Shown piece after piece: positions 16,699-34,962 of a stretch of 36,368 nucleotides of DNA. The position numbers and the translations under genes were made by a program. Below the pieces are notes generated by a model. The model was given only the letters and a program-made list of their open reading frames with translations, had not been told where the DNA came from and did not search any database. The DNA is from a virus. The DNA lies in IMG/VR virus record IMGVR_UViG_3300025674_000150, positions 1-36,368 of that record; one strand, given 5' to 3'. Position 1 is the stretch's first letter; each line of letters begins with the position of its first letter.

Positions 16699-17550
16699 AT
16701 GACACAGGTTACTACAATCGACACTAACAACTATGCGGCAATGGCTAAGTTAACAGGCATTGCTAGTGAGGGTACGGGTAGCAAGGGAAGCACCCTAGCC
16801 CGTATGCGCATCAATCATTCACCTATTCTGGGTGATGAGTCTATCCTTGTAAAAGGCGGCACCTACAAGCTAGACATTCCAGATGGCCCCACTTACTACG
16901 CACCGTCAATTAAAATTCGTGCATTCTTGCAGCGTTTTATGTATAAGCGGTGGACTTCTGACGGCTTTGTCAAAACACTCATGGCTGATAATCTTGAACT
17001 TGATCTGAAAGATAATTTCGGTGGTTTTAACTGCGGTAAACCTGCCGGATACGTCAAGGACTTCAAGGCACTAAAACCTGAACTGCAAGAACTTATCAAG
17101 CAAACTAAGCGTGTAAGAGCAGTGTTTGGTACAGTGGAGATGTCTAGCCCAGTAGATGAGAAGGGTAAAAAGGTATCCCTAGAACCTACCCCATTCATAT
17201 GGGAGATAGATAACCGGGAGGCTTTTGACGAGTTGGGGAACACCTTTAAGCAGCTTGCCAAGATGCAGCGTCTTCCAGTGCAGCATCCCATCACACTAAA
17301 TACTGATGAGCGTAAGCTACAGACAGGTGGAAAATACTATGTTCCTGTCTCTTCACTTGATCTGACGACTACTTTGGAGATGGACAATGCAGATCAAAAA
17401 CTTGCAGGAGACTTCTTATCGTGGATTGAAAACTACAATGTCTACATTGCCAATGCTTGGGACGAAAAGAAGCAAGCCCAGATGATGGATGAAGAAGACA
17501 GTGACATTGTAGATGATCTTGTCGATATAGAAGTTGAAGAGGTAGCATAA
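16699..17550 (+). CDS. Putative single-stranded DNA-binding protein (T7 gp2.5-like role)
   Basis: A 283-residue protein with a mixed alpha/beta body and a strongly acidic C-terminal tail (MDEEDSDIVDDLVDIEVEEV), the hallmark of phage SSB proteins that contact polymerase and helicase through an acidic tail. The body includes IKIRAFLQRFMYKRW and GGFNCGKPAGYVKD. The overall length is close to T7 gp2.5/DUF2815 proteins (about 230-280). Its own strong promoter and position between polymerase and exonuclease genes agree with a protein needed in large amounts. I infer the role from tail and context rather than from a firm fold match. Confidence 0.75.
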   Translation: MTQVTTIDTNNYAAMAKLTGIASEGTGSKGSTLARMRINHSPILGDESILVKGGTYKLDIPDGPTYYAPSIKIRAFLQRFMYKRWTSDGFVKTLMADNLELDLKDNFGGFNCGKPAGYVKDFKALKPELQELIKQTKRVRAVFGTVEMSSPVDEKGKKVSLEPTPFIWEIDNREAFDELGNTFKQLAKMQRLPVQHPITLNTDERKLQTGGKYYVPVSSLDLTTTLEMDNADQKLAGDFLSWIENYNVYIANAWDEKKQAQMMDEEDSDIVDDLVDIEVEEVA

Positions 17551-18410
17551 TGAATCACCCTGCTGAACTGGCTGTGCATCAGTACATGGAGAACGCTGTT
17601 AAGGGTAAGTCCTCAATGTCAGAGGATACTATTAAACAGGTAGGTCAAGATGTAATGAACGCACTTCAACGCCAGTTTGGTGGGGGTAACAAGCGTGACA
17701 AGTTTGGTCTGCGTATGTCAAACGTAGGTAGGCCAACTTGCCAGCTTTGGTTTGAGAAGAATGAACCAGAGAAAGCGTTACCCTTTCCAACAACATTTGT
17801 AATGAACATGATGCTTGGAGACATCGTAGAGGCGGTCTTCAAGGGTCTTCTGAAAGAAGCAGGAGTGCAGTATGAAGATGATGAAAAGGTTACTCTACAG
17901 CTTGACGACGATACATCCATCACTGGCACCTATGATATTGTTATTGACGGTGCTGTTGATGATATTAAGTCAGCATCTAATTGGTCGTATACTAACAAGT
18001 TTGAATCTTTCGACACACTAAAGAAAGGAGATGCTTTCGGTTATGTAGGACAGCTTGCTGGCTATGCAAAAGCGTCAGGAAAACGTGCAGGTGGATGGTG
18101 GGTAGTGAACAAAGCTAACGGCCAGTTTAAGTACGTACCAGCTACAGGCATGGATGTTGAGGAAGAAGTAGGTAAGATCAAAGAGACATCAGATGCGGTT
18201 GAAGCTAACAAGTTTGAACGCTGCTTTGAGGCCGTGCCTGAAACATTTCGTGGTAAGCCTACAGGTAATACTATGCTTGGTACAGAGTGTGGTTTCTGTC
18301 GCTATCGTTTCTCGTGCTGGCCGGAAATACAGGAACTACCTGCAGTAGCATCACAGGCTAAGAACCCTAAAACAGTTGCGTATGTAAGTCTGGCTGAAGA
18401 GTATGCCTAA
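17550..18410 (+). CDS. RecB/Cas4-like exonuclease with iron-sulfur cysteines
   Basis: A 286-residue PD-(D/E)XK nuclease. Motifs are D129 in SITGTYDIVIDG, D138-I-K140 (VDDIKS) and the Q168-x-x-G-Y motif (YVGQLAGYAKA). Four cysteines have the AddB/Cas4 iron-sulfur arrangement: one at the N-terminal side (C64 in RPTCQLWFEKN) and three near the C-terminus (C247, C250, C256 in GTECGFCRYRFSCW). It probably degrades host DNA or processes ends for recombination, the role of T7 gp6. The start overlaps the SSB stop (TAATG) and the end overlaps the endonuclease I gene by 8 bases. Confidence 0.85.
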   Translation: MNHPAELAVHQYMENAVKGKSSMSEDTIKQVGQDVMNALQRQFGGGNKRDKFGLRMSNVGRPTCQLWFEKNEPEKALPFPTTFVMNMMLGDIVEAVFKGLLKEAGVQYEDDEKVTLQLDDDTSITGTYDIVIDGAVDDIKSASNWSYTNKFESFDTLKKGDAFGYVGQLAGYAKASGKRAGGWWVVNKANGQFKYVPATGMDVEEEVGKIKETSDAVEANKFERCFEAVPETFRGKPTGNTMLGTECGFCRYRFSCWPEIQELPAVASQAKNPKTVAYVSLAEEYA

Positions 18411-18858
18411 CTACAAAGCATTTCGTGCGGCACGAAAATATGGGTATAGGAGTGGATTAGAGCATAAGCTTTCCGTTTATCTAGATGAACTCAAAGTCAA
18501 GTACGACTACGAGAACATAAAAATTGAGTGGGAAGACTTGGCCTACCGCACCTATACTCCTGACTTCATACTGGACAACGGTATCATCATTGAGACGAAG
18601 GGCATGTTTACGGCGGCTGATAGACGCAAGCATCTTGCAATCAAGAAGCAGCATCCTAAGTTAGACCTTCGTTTTGTATTTGAAAACAGTAGACGTAAGC
18701 TGCGTAAAGGTGCTAAGTCTACATATGCAGAGTGGTGTATTAAATACGGGTTTAGATACTATGACCGCATCATTCCCGAAGATTGGCTAAAGGAGAAGGG
18801 TAAAAACAATCACCCTAAGTTTATTAAGTTTAGTGGAACCAAAGTGAAGAGGAGATGA
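18403..18858 (+). CDS. T7-type endonuclease I (Holliday junction resolvase)
   Basis: A 151-residue protein. The catalytic residues of T7 gp3 align by spacing: E20 (YRSGLEHKL), D54 (YTPDFILD), E64 and K66 (IIIETKG). T7 gp3 has E20, D55, E65, K67 and 149 residues, so length and spacing agree almost exactly. It cuts branched DNA made during replication and recombination before packaging, and helps destroy host DNA. It directly follows the exonuclease gene, the same functional pair as in T7. Confidence 0.92.
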   Translation: MPNYKAFRAARKYGYRSGLEHKLSVYLDELKVKYDYENIKIEWEDLAYRTYTPDFILDNGIIIETKGMFTAADRRKHLAIKKQHPKLDLRFVFENSRRKLRKGAKSTYAEWCIKYGFRYYDRIIPEDWLKEKGKNNHPKFIKFSGTKVKRR

Positions 18859-32227: not shown

Positions 32228-33340
32228 TTACAACTCCGCACTTACGCCAATATACCCTGACGCATTTACTATTCTATAGTTATATGTTCCAGTAGCACTA
32301 TTCAGTGAACTAAATGTTAAATCAATTGCACAGGTAGTTTTACTTGAACTACCTCTGATAGCGGGAACAGCACTACAAACTTGTGTAGCTCCATTACCCC
32401 ATGACCCGTAATGTGCGGCTGTGCCACTTTGGTCAATGGCGGTTGGAGCAGCCCTCATTTCAACGGGCAATGGTAACATTGCCATAGCTGCTGTAGTAGT
32501 ATATACACCGCCAGCAGCAAAGTAATTATTGTCTCCGTTATAATTTATTCTGAAATAATACCTCTGACACTTAGCCAACTCATCGCCAAACGACCGATGC
32601 TCAAACGGCGTGGCCTGTTCGCCAACTTCCATCTGCACTCCGGTGATGTACCATTCGTTACCAACCGTGTCGGCAAGATTTACCTGACTGGGGTGTACGG
32701 CATTAGCATCAACATCGCCACCCCAAGTTCCATTAAAAAACGTACCGCTTTTAAGGTCTGCACCCCCAAGAAGGGCAAAGTTTAAACGCAGAGACATATT
32801 ATTATCGTTATCGAATGCCCCAGTGGTATCTGGATTGAAAGTAAGCGATTTACGTTCCCAAGTATTTGAACTGTTGATGGTGTATGACAAAGCGTTTTGC
32901 CTATCATTATCTGTGTCACCAAGTCCTACTGTGTATACGCCTGTCTTGTTGGACTTTACATAAAAAGAAACAGTAAATGGTTTGGCATCCGATGTGCCTT
33001 TAGCAAGAGACTGTAAATCTCGCCCTTCAAATGCGTATCTGAGATGCCAGAACTGTGTAGAGGCCAGAGAGGTGTCGGCAGTTGTTACTTCAATCTTTGC
33101 GCTATTAGAAAATCCAGATGGGGCATCTGTACTTTGTGAAAATGTAGACACTTGGTCACCACTAAGAGAAATCTGAAATCTATCCAATACAGTGTAACCT
33201 TCACCAGTTCCGTTTGGCCCTACGTTAGTTTTACTCGTAGCCCTCTGCGCCACCTGCATCGCACCGTTGATAATCAGGTTCCTGTTCGACAACGCCGTCT
33301 GCGAACCAATCAGTGCGGCGAGTTCTGCTGCCTTACTCAT
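32228..33340 (-). CDS. Tail fibre / receptor-binding protein, lectin-like
   Basis: A 370-residue protein. The start of the globular part is typical of marine phage fibres: SNRNLIINGAMQVAQRATSK, YTVLDRFQISLSGD. The middle is a jelly-roll-like region (KPFTVSFYVKSNKTGVYTVG; NSSNTWERKSLTFNPDT), then YITGVQMEVGEQATPFEHRS and FGDELAKCQRYYF. Such domains bind surface sugars. The C-terminal ~100 residues (Gly/Ala/Ser-rich) are probably the variable host-binding tip. The start overlaps the upstream stop by four bases (ATGA). Confidence 0.88.
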   Translation of the reverse strand: MSKAAELAALIGSQTALSNRNLIINGAMQVAQRATSKTNVGPNGTGEGYTVLDRFQISLSGDQVSTFSQSTDAPSGFSNSAKIEVTTADTSLASTQFWHLRYAFEGRDLQSLAKGTSDAKPFTVSFYVKSNKTGVYTVGLGDTDNDRQNALSYTINSSNTWERKSLTFNPDTTGAFDNDNNMSLRLNFALLGGADLKSGTFFNGTWGGDVDANAVHPSQVNLADTVGNEWYITGVQMEVGEQATPFEHRSFGDELAKCQRYYFRINYNGDNNYFAAGGVYTTTAAMAMLPLPVEMRAAPTAIDQSGTAAHYGSWGNGATQVCSAVPAIRGSSSKTTCAIDLTFSSLNSATGTYNYRIVNASGYIGVSAEL

Positions 33341-33720
33341 GCGAGGTCTCCATTAACCGTATAACTTCTGCTGTTACTGTCCCGTGAGCCGCTAAGATTG
33401 TGGGTTTTCAAAGCGACTGCTGATGTTGAACGAGGCGCACTTGAAACCAATTCTTGGATAACCATAATCTCATCATTATCTCTAGGTGTGCCATTAGCAG
33501 AATAATCTGCGTTGGTCATGTTGCTGGTAAAGTTTGTTGTTGTCACCCCTGTTTCTTGGTCATTTATACTAGACACGTTCAACGAATCTGAAAGAGTGGG
33601 AGTACCATCACCCTCTATAAAAGCCCACATTTTTGCACTTCCCCCTGCAACAAAGCTGGTGGCAATGCTGTTGTTCCCGCTGGCATCCTTTAGGGTGTTT
33701 ACTCTCAGTTCACTAGCCAT
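33337..33720 (-). CDS. Tail-fibre-like paralogue 3 of tandem array
   Basis: A 127-residue protein starting MASELRVNTLKDASGNNSIA and ending NGDLA. It shares its plan with the two genes upstream: a short MAS-x-L-x-V-(D/N)-T start, a W/F-A-(F/Y) strand, a (S/N)-x-S-(I/V)-x-D-x-x-T-G-(V/S) strand (LNVSSINDQETGVTTTNFTS), and the GDLA end. Probably a beta-rich fibre module or adaptor carried on the tail. It is the most leftward of three copies. Confidence 0.8.
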   Translation of the reverse strand: MASELRVNTLKDASGNNSIATSFVAGGSAKMWAFIEGDGTPTLSDSLNVSSINDQETGVTTTNFTSNMTNADYSANGTPRDNDEIMVIQELVSSAPRSTSAVALKTHNLSGSRDSNSRSYTVNGDLA

Positions 33721-34138
33721 TATGCGAGGTCTCCATGTATCAATCCGTACACATTAGGAATGTCCACAGCGGCTGTTTCATTGCCGTTTGCCCCACGAAT
33801 GCGAAACTGAGAAGTCGCACAGTCGCTTGTTGAACCTTCGCAGTTCATGCTGTTGGCATAAGAACCTGACGTTATAGCCTGACTAAATAATACATTGTTC
33901 ATATTATTGGTGAAATTGGCTTGATAGCTGCCGGTTCCGTTATCAGCAACCGAAGCTGTGTTTAAAGAATCAGACAAAGTGTTGCCGCTTGCGGAAATGT
34001 AACACCAAGACTTAGCCAGACCCTGCTGCAAATTCGTTGTGGTCGAGTTGCCCTCGCCTGTCACCGCAATAGAGCCAGCCGTGGTTACTCCTGTGATGGT
34101 ATCGACTTTGAGTATGCTTGCCATTATGCGAGGTCTCC
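33716..34138 (-). repeat. Identical gene-junction repeats of the fibre array
   Basis: On the minus strand GGAGACCTCGCAT occurs at 34138-34126, 33734-33722 and 33351-33339, each at the 3' end of one fibre-like paralogue. In the first two the identity is 19 bases (34138-34120 and 33734-33716), extending through TAATGGC. Each copy encodes G-D-L-A and the stop, provides GGAG as ribosome binding site, and overlaps the next start. Span given covers the two longest copies. Confidence 0.85.
33720..34124 (-). CDS. Tail-fibre-like paralogue 2 of tandem array
   Basis: A 134-residue protein starting MASILKVDTITGVTTAGSIA and ending IHGDLA. I place the start at ATG 34124, not at the in-frame upstream start at 34157, because the conserved junction (GGAG, then TAATGGC) lies exactly here, as at the neighbouring gene. 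Shared segments with the other copies are SDSLNTASVADNGTGSYQAN and FTNNMNNVLF. Two cysteines appear in the variable third quarter (NCEGSTSDCATSQ). Confidence 0.8.
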   Translation of the reverse strand: MASILKVDTITGVTTAGSIAVTGEGNSTTTNLQQGLAKSWCYISASGNTLSDSLNTASVADNGTGSYQANFTNNMNNVLFSQAITSGSYANSMNCEGSTSDCATSQFRIRGANGNETAAVDIPNVYGLIHGDLA

Positions 34139-34507
34139 GTGTGCTGTAGCCATACACAATTCTGCGTCAGCTAACGCTTCAGAAAATTTCAAGAAATCTA
34201 ACTGAACTTGTGACGCTGTTGGCGGTACGTCATGGGAAACGCATGTAGAGCCAACATAACTACCACTGTCGTGAGTAGAGTTTGCTGTAATTATATATGA
34301 CGCATCTCCCATAGAAGAGACAAAGGCTATCGTTGTCAGCCCTGTACCACCGTCTGCAATACTAGATGCGTTGAATGACTTAGTTATGGCTTGCGTACTG
34401 TCTTGTTCAAAGTTAGCAAAGAATTTTGCCGCAGTCTGCTTCGTCAGCGCAACAGGACCACTTCCCGCCTTATCCGCAATCGTGTCTACATTCAATACGC
34501 TGGTCAT
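34124..34507 (-). CDS. Tail-fibre-like paralogue 1 of tandem array
   Basis: A 127-residue protein starting MTSVLNVDTIADKAGSGPVA and ending AHGDLA. ATG 34507 is chosen over an upstream TTG at 34519 because TTGGAG precedes it with a good spacer, it overlaps the upstream stop (ATGA), and the N-terminus then matches the other copies. Shared segments are KSFNASSIADGGTGLTTIAF and VSSMGDASYIITA. Likely a tail-fibre module. Confidence 0.8.
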   Translation of the reverse strand: MTSVLNVDTIADKAGSGPVALTKQTAAKFFANFEQDSTQAITKSFNASSIADGGTGLTTIAFVSSMGDASYIITANSTHDSGSYVGSTCVSHDVPPTASQVQLDFLKFSEALADAELCMATAHGDLA

Positions 34508-34962
34508 ACGATGCTCCAATATCCGTTAACAGTGACGGTGGCACTCTGTGTAATCGGTCCTGCCGACACACCGTTCTCATCGCTGTCAATCGTGATGTCT
34601 GCGCTGATGGTCTGACCGTTCAAGCGGATGATGCTGTTGTTGCCCTTGAATGGGTAGCGTGTGTCAGCCTCAGTCTTTGTGTAGGCATTGTTCACAGAGA
34701 ACACATCGTACACAACCATCTCAACTGTATCATTCAGGCTGGCCCCAGTTACCAACACAACCGTCGTGCCTGTCGTAGCGGTGTAGTCAGTGCCGGGTAC
34801 AAGAAGCACACCGTTCTGATATACGTCCATGTACAGGCTGTCTGAGTAGTTCAGGACACCACTGCTGGCATCACTGCCACTGAATGATGTCTGACCGGCA
34901 GTGGCCTGATACTGGTAGCGGTTACGAACACCGGCTGATGGGGATTTACCTATGTATGGCAT
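34504..34962 (-). CDS. Tail-fibre-associated protein
   Basis: A 152-residue protein starting MPYIGKSPSAGVRNRYQYQA, followed by TAGQTSFSGSDASSGVLNYS, DVYQNGVLLVPGTDYT and VVYDVFSVNNAYTKTEADTR. This is a well-known pattern in marine phages for an N-terminal tail-attachment or fibre domain (PYIGKxP start, Q-x-x-F-x-G). It is beta-rich and usually forms part of a trimeric fibre. AAGGAA lies before ATG 34962. Confidence 0.85.
   Translation of the reverse strand: MPYIGKSPSAGVRNRYQYQATAGQTSFSGSDASSGVLNYSDSLYMDVYQNGVLLVPGTDYTATTGTTVVLVTGASLNDTVEMVVYDVFSVNNAYTKTEADTRYPFKGNNSIIRLNGQTISADITIDSDENGVSAGPITQSATVTVNGYWSIV

Follow-up and report, generated by a model that had tools for sequence, protein, structure and literature searches.

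Fixed slots and exchangeable bodies in an array of tail-fibre-like genes of a probable HMO-2011-like marine phage

A tandem array of three small tail-fibre-like genes

The window, i.e. the whole stretch of DNA analysed here (36,368 nt), matches Puniceispirillum phage HMO-2011 (GU557055) in its tail region. Genes for a tyrosine integrase, a DnaB-like helicase, a DNA polymerase, a ribonucleotide reductase and a T7-type endonuclease I were found as well. Based on the tail-region match and this gene content, we tentatively assign the window to an HMO-2011-like marine phage. At 16699-18858 a 283-aa gene precedes a Cas4-like exonuclease and the T7-type endonuclease I; this region is a candidate recombination module.

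The array and its neighbours are arranged as follows.

34504..34962, minus strand: upstream neighbour, 152 aa (MPYIGKSP...), conserved in HMO-2011
34124..34507, minus strand: slot-1 gene, 127 aa (MTSVLNVDTI...GDLA), phrog_11355 tail fibre family
34424..34507, minus strand: slot-1 N-terminal segment, residues 1-28, the last being the invariant Lys (family alignment)
34139..34423, minus strand: slot-1 body, residues 29-123, exchangeable (alignment and body comparisons)
34126..34138, minus strand: joint GGAGACCTCGCAT after slot 1, 1-nt overlap with the next start
33720..34124, minus strand: slot-2 gene, 134 aa (MASILKVDTITG...GDLA), body replaced in the relative L085
34011..34124, minus strand: slot-2 N-terminal segment, residues 1-38, the last being the invariant Lys (low model confidence)
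33735..34010, minus strand: slot-2 body, residues 39-130, predicted eight-stranded beta domain (AlphaFold model)
33722..33734, minus strand: joint GGAGACCTCGCAT after slot 2, 1-nt overlap with the next start
33337..33720, minus strand: slot-3 gene, 127 aa (MASELRVNTLKD...GDLA), from the translation
33631..33720, minus strand: slot-3 N-terminal segment, residues 1-30, the last being the invariant Lys (alignment and model)
33352..33630, minus strand: slot-3 body, residues 31-123, predicted eight-stranded beta domain (AlphaFold model)
33339..33351, minus strand: joint GGAGACCTCGCAT after slot 3, 4-nt overlap (ATGA) with the next start
32228..33340, minus strand: downstream larger tail-fibre gene, 370 aa (MSKAAELAALIGSQ...), N-terminus constant and body replaced in L085

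The three small genes share the start pattern M[TA]SxLxVxTh and the end GDLA, with full-alignment identities to the first gene of 27-35%. Paralogy of their products is significant (BLASTP between pairs, E 2e-8 to 5e-13), and all three match the phage tail fibre profile phrog_11355 over most of each protein (E 7.7e-14, 3e-12 and 4.8e-13). This bears out the initial annotation, which had described three tandem fibre-like paralogues of 127, 134 and 127 residues that are alike at start and end. Designed Pizza proteins were discarded as sequence homologues, the match comprising 23 low-information residues.

The upstream neighbour ends in TTGGAGCATCGTATG, which contains an SD-like GGAG and overlaps the slot-1 start. 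At the other side the third joint runs into the larger tail-fibre gene, which is part of the same arrangement. This 370-aa fibre repeats the array design, as about the first 34 residues are common to L085 and are followed by a replaced body. In two further relatives (L005 and L024) the C-terminal half of the fibre is 98.8% identical to the window and the upstream bodies differ.

Relatives and slot order

Four scans of IMG/VR together with the window and HMO-2011 yielded 302 loci in 230 groups, whereby loci with a shared exact 1,000-mer were merged. The relatives are mostly metagenome contigs; bacterial genomes contributed one MAG locus only. The family set derived from these loci comprises 846 non-redundant genes with a stop codon, and 803 of them end exactly in GDLA. 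No GDLA joint or domain was found in the 17 kb tail stretches of the roseophages CRP-1, CRP-2, CRP-13 and CRP-345 (L310-L313). These Roseobacter phages belong to the same broad group and show a few long tail fibres in these stretches.

The N-termini of the family sort into slot classes. The order 1<2<3 is kept with zero violations in the 195 contig groups with hits, and the longest contiguous run is three in 136 of these. Whole genes had been thought to shuffle as cassettes, which is contradicted by the fixed N-terminal slot order in all 195 groups. The related idea that the array grows and shrinks finds weak support: extra or substituted slots and one to eight copies per locus hint at such changes, whereas the three-slot core is stable.

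Some genes combine the family with other proteins. Slot-2 N-termini are joined to non-GDLA bodies in six proteins (L004:4590-5114, L014:5058-5606, L033:1506-2051, L253, L263 and L267), and the corresponding body of HMO-2011 is annotated as C1q. Slot 2 therefore accepts other folds. Conversely, N-termini of the MSKAAEL/MSRASDL type, i.e. the start of the large fibre, precede a GDLA-type body in L142, L153, L156, L144, L148 and L250; some of these genes constitute an additional slot, situated after slot 2 and before slot 3.

Exchange of bodies between slots

The body was defined as all residues after the invariant Lys up to GDLA, resulting in 805 bodies. Body pairs were counted at an identity of at least 80% if they stemmed from different contig groups and both genes were assigned to a slot. 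The 133 pairs obtained split into 82 cross-slot and 51 same-slot pairs. Under random labels 22.8 same-slot pairs are expected (maximum 38 in 2,000 shuffles), and this excess suggests that part of the body sharing reflects ancestry or same-slot exchange. Among 140 pairs of contig groups sharing a body, exactly one body is common in 121 despite a mean of 4.17 bodies per group; therefore bodies move largely independently. The body pool is large, with 678 clusters at 80% identity among the 805 bodies, most of them seen once, and a Chao1 estimate of about 3,000 clusters. The isolate HMO-2011 takes part in this sharing: between its slot-1 body and a slot-U2 body of L067 the identity is 83%. Duplication within a genome was rejected as a source of the variety: no cross-slot pair within a locus reaches a body identity of at least 50%, although few would be expected by chance anyway.

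Replacement is also seen between near-identical genomes. L085 and the window share 95-99% identity on both flanks of slot 2, and 98-99% in the slot-1 and slot-3 proteins. Between the Lys region and the GDLA joint of slot 2, however, the body in L085 shows no relationship to that of the window, and the downstream 370-aa fibre has a replaced body as well. A second case is given by the isolate records of two freshwater cyanophages, Mel-JY33 and Nsp-JY18, with 97% identity before the first body and 96% beyond the third gene; in between the N-termini match and all three bodies differ. In Mel-JY33 two of the three genes end in an exact GDLA joint, and one gene end of Nsp-JY18 has a GSLA variant.

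Borders of the exchanged unit

A border profile was calculated from 58 cross-slot pairs with a body identity of at least 85%, no body being used twice. Nucleotide identity is mostly 0.25-0.5 in the N-terminus (0.61 at one codon), rises to 0.72 at the residue before Lys and to 0.89 at the Lys codon, and stays at about 0.9 along the body and 0.83-0.99 over GDLA. It falls to 0.78 at the stop and to 0.35 just beyond. Explicit cross-slot alignments show cassettes of 93-99% nucleotide identity between unrelated flanks. One body is carried by both L287 in slot 1 and L300 in slot 3, the two contigs coming from the same metagenome (3300044226).

Because the Lys column had defined the body, the left border was also measured by leftward extension from just after Lys in 12-nt windows. 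No extension was observed in 72 of 111 pairs; with a single exception, the other pairs extended by no more than 42 nt. The border of cross-slot homology is sharp on the left too, at the invariant Lys codon. On the right, many pairs have a border that is sharp at 13 nt; the left border differs from it in sequence, with AA[AG] at the Lys codon.

The proposal that shuffling is bounded by the joints is supported by near-identical bodies at different positions and by homology that stops at the joint, but it needs correction as to the unit. According to these alignments, the moving unit is the body plus GDLA, from the Lys codon to GDLA/stop, and not the whole gene.

The joint and its codons

The 36 kb window contains exactly three copies of the joint GGAGACCTCGCAT, all on the minus strand and one per gene 3’ end; 0.49 matches would be expected by chance with up to two mismatches. 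It consists of the GDLA codons and the first base of the stop codon, with GGAG inside. The next start overlaps the gene end as ..GCATAATG (1 nt, twice) or as ..GCATGA (4 nt, once). The three exact copies confirm that the identical 3’ joints unite GDLA, an RBS-like GGAG and the next start, as had been suspected. Across the family, 822 of the 846 genes are followed by an ATG that overlaps their end by 1 or 4 nt.

Codon usage in GDLA is strongly skewed. Gly is encoded by GGA in 98.8% vs 24% elsewhere in the same genes and 10% in the N-termini, Asp by GAC in 85% vs 33% and Ala by GCA in 92% vs 41% elsewhere in the same genes. For Leu, CTC is used in 42% vs 5-8% elsewhere. The GGAG of the joint is predicted to be the ribosome-binding site of the next gene. 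Single loci separate the two duties. GDLA is kept in some loci where the next gene owns an SD (L097, L142, L152, L153 and L156). In L076, L205 and L249 the SD is shifted downstream and the peptide now reads SDLA, while L073 has lost GDLA (GGLS) and retained GGAGG.

The view that joint conservation suffices to prove recombination was rejected. The needs of coding, SD and start already predict conservation, and the codon skew indicates that these constraints explain much of it; joint identity alone therefore proves no recombination. The three joints (33339-33351, 33722-33734 and 34126-34138) also contain GAGACC, the recognition sequence of BsaI/Eco31I. This is probably coincidental, since relatives with a TTA variant of the joint are devoid of GAGACC.

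Predicted structure of the bodies

AlphaFold models of the slot-2 and slot-3 proteins show an N-terminus of low confidence and eight strands within residues 39-130 and 31-123, respectively. In both models the strands begin just after Lys and stop just before GDLA. The model borders coincide with the exchange borders, and the exchanged unit therefore corresponds to the predicted domain. A fold comparison of the models with solved structures, receptor-binding structures included, gave no significant match. Among predicted viral proteins 59 matches were obtained at E<=0.001, several of which are annotated as tail fibres.

Alternative explanations

A dedicated site-specific recombinase could cut at GGAGACCTCGCAT in a shufflon-like manner, in place of selection acting on random or short-homology crossovers. 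The right border, sharp at 13 nt in many pairs, and the over-use of CTC, for which the SD gives no reason, would fit such an enzyme. We nevertheless regard it as unlikely. The region 33200-34600 is free of inverted repeats, and the sole candidate enzyme is a phage-type tyrosine integrase encoded far away. Moreover the joint varies synonymously among relatives (CTC, CTA, TTA, CTT), the left border has another sequence, and the constant slot order in the 195 groups speaks against rearrangement of cassettes. A shufflon was rejected for want of inverted repeats.

Alternatively, the genes might simply be old paralogues that have diverged without changing position, with a joint kept identical by the need for GDLA, SD and start and no recombination involved. 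The fixed slot order, the functional constraint on the joint codons and an N-terminal synonymous identity resembling that of neighbouring genes are in line with this. It is contradicted by bodies that are 90-100% identical across slots next to unrelated N-termini and downstream genes; whole-body replacement between near-identical genomes speaks against it as well, and we give it very little weight.

Hardly more or less probable is that cross-slot bodies result from chimaeric contigs in metagenome assembly. Most relatives are indeed metagenome contigs, and the conserved N-terminal islands invite mis-joins within the same slot. Cross-slot pairs, however, share only ~13 nt on the right and a few nt on the left between unrelated flanks, and usual assembly word lengths exceed these ~13 nt. 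The same patterns are found in the isolate records HMO-2011, Mel-JY33 and Nsp-JY18.

A diversity-generating retroelement that mutates the bodies can practically be dismissed: variable tail-fibre bodies are typical targets of such elements, but the variation consists of whole-domain replacement, the direct repeats of the region include no template-repeat-like copy of a body, and no reverse transcriptase (PF00078, with positive controls) was found in the 36 kb record, which is possibly a fragment.

Proposed mechanism of exchange

We consider it likely that the locus is an array of tail proteins with fixed slots and exchangeable tips in an HMO-2011-like marine phage. Each small gene consists of a slot-specific N-terminal segment of 28-38 residues ending in Lys, one small predicted beta-rich domain and GDLA. 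The slots keep their order, and the body cassette (about 250-315 nt, from the Lys codon to GDLA/stop) is swapped between phages and slots. An incoming body would preserve both the frame and downstream translation: a donor body keeps the next gene translated because all bodies end in GDLA codons with GGAG, abutting or overlapping the next start. The N-termini may serve as docking segments in the virion. The bodies are probably the host-binding parts, acting as receptor-binding tips whose reassortment would alter the host range, and the array may thus be a way to vary host recognition.

As to the route, exchange might occur during mixed infections by rare recombination events that use short homology or strand annealing, with subsequent selection of the chimaeras that work. 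Cross-slot pairs have less sequence in common at their borders than the minimal pairing segments quoted for RecA (31-34 bp) and Red beta (23-27 bp; PMC3945230). No annealing recombinase was recognised in the window. Fourfold-site identity of the N-terminal islands is 0.49-0.51 in the three slots vs 0.45 and 0.53 in neighbouring conserved genes; owing to this likeness, the idea that the islands are homology arms kept uniform by special homogenisation was rejected.

If the bodies are receptor-binding tips, a few slots, a large shared pool and defined swap borders would provide a combinatorial host-recognition repertoire. The translational signal inside a peptide motif would act as a compatibility standard for domain exchange. 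Reassortment of host recognition without a dedicated diversity-generating enzyme would become testable.

Comparison with known systems

HMO-2011-type phages are described as one of the most abundant marine viral groups; the comparison reporting this leaves their fibres unmentioned (PMC9038755). The array of HMO-2011 resembles that of the window in slots, N-termini, GDLA ends and the downstream fibre gene. Of its five GDLA genes, two occupy slots 1 and 3 just as in the window. It differs in slot 2, which holds a C1q-domain protein plus an extra gene, and its joints differ synonymously. In the HMO-2011 record the genes are annotated only as putative tail fibres and exchange is not mentioned.

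Shufflons and invertible tail-fibre cassettes combine a constant N-terminus with alternative C-terminal parts. The array of the window is alike in this respect, but inverted repeats were not found and silent partial cassettes were not noticed; it consists of complete genes in fixed order. We slightly favour the view that marine phages draw on a common circulating pool of beta-domain cassettes, each of which fits any of several tail slots, the triple-use joint making swaps translationally neutral. The array would then be an enzyme-free counterpart of a shufflon at the level of the population.

In gp38 of T-even phages, glycine-rich motifs flank hypervariable segments. Unlike in gp38, polyglycine motifs are found neither in the three translations nor in the family consensus. 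Tail-fibre specificity in T-even phages is exchanged by recombination at conserved motifs (1998 work, as summarised in PMC7468147). The array works like this adhesin exchange, as variable segments are swapped at short conserved motifs, with no homology claimed. As far as that summary goes, T-even exchange concerns one adhesin locus, whereas several paralogous slots are fed from a common pool here. To our knowledge, the conserved T-even motif has not been described as ribosome-binding site and start of the next gene.

Host-recognition genes of aquatic phages lie in metaviromic islands or flexible modules, according to the relevant parts of PMC3909814 and PMC7468147. There as here, near-identical phages differ in highly variable host-recognition genes, with variants drawn from a co-existing pool. 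In those parts of both papers whole genes or regions vary, and cross-slot domain exchange and the joint are not described. The exchange proposed here would offer a sequence-level reason for the presence of tail-fibre and C1q genes in metaviromic islands.

The open-licence articles searched included no relevant paper on GDLA in connection with phages, none on Mel-JY33 and no account of fixed paralogous slots that share a body pool at a joint doubling as RBS. Modular exchange of tail fibres is known, whereas cross-slot exchange at a triple-use joint looks new.
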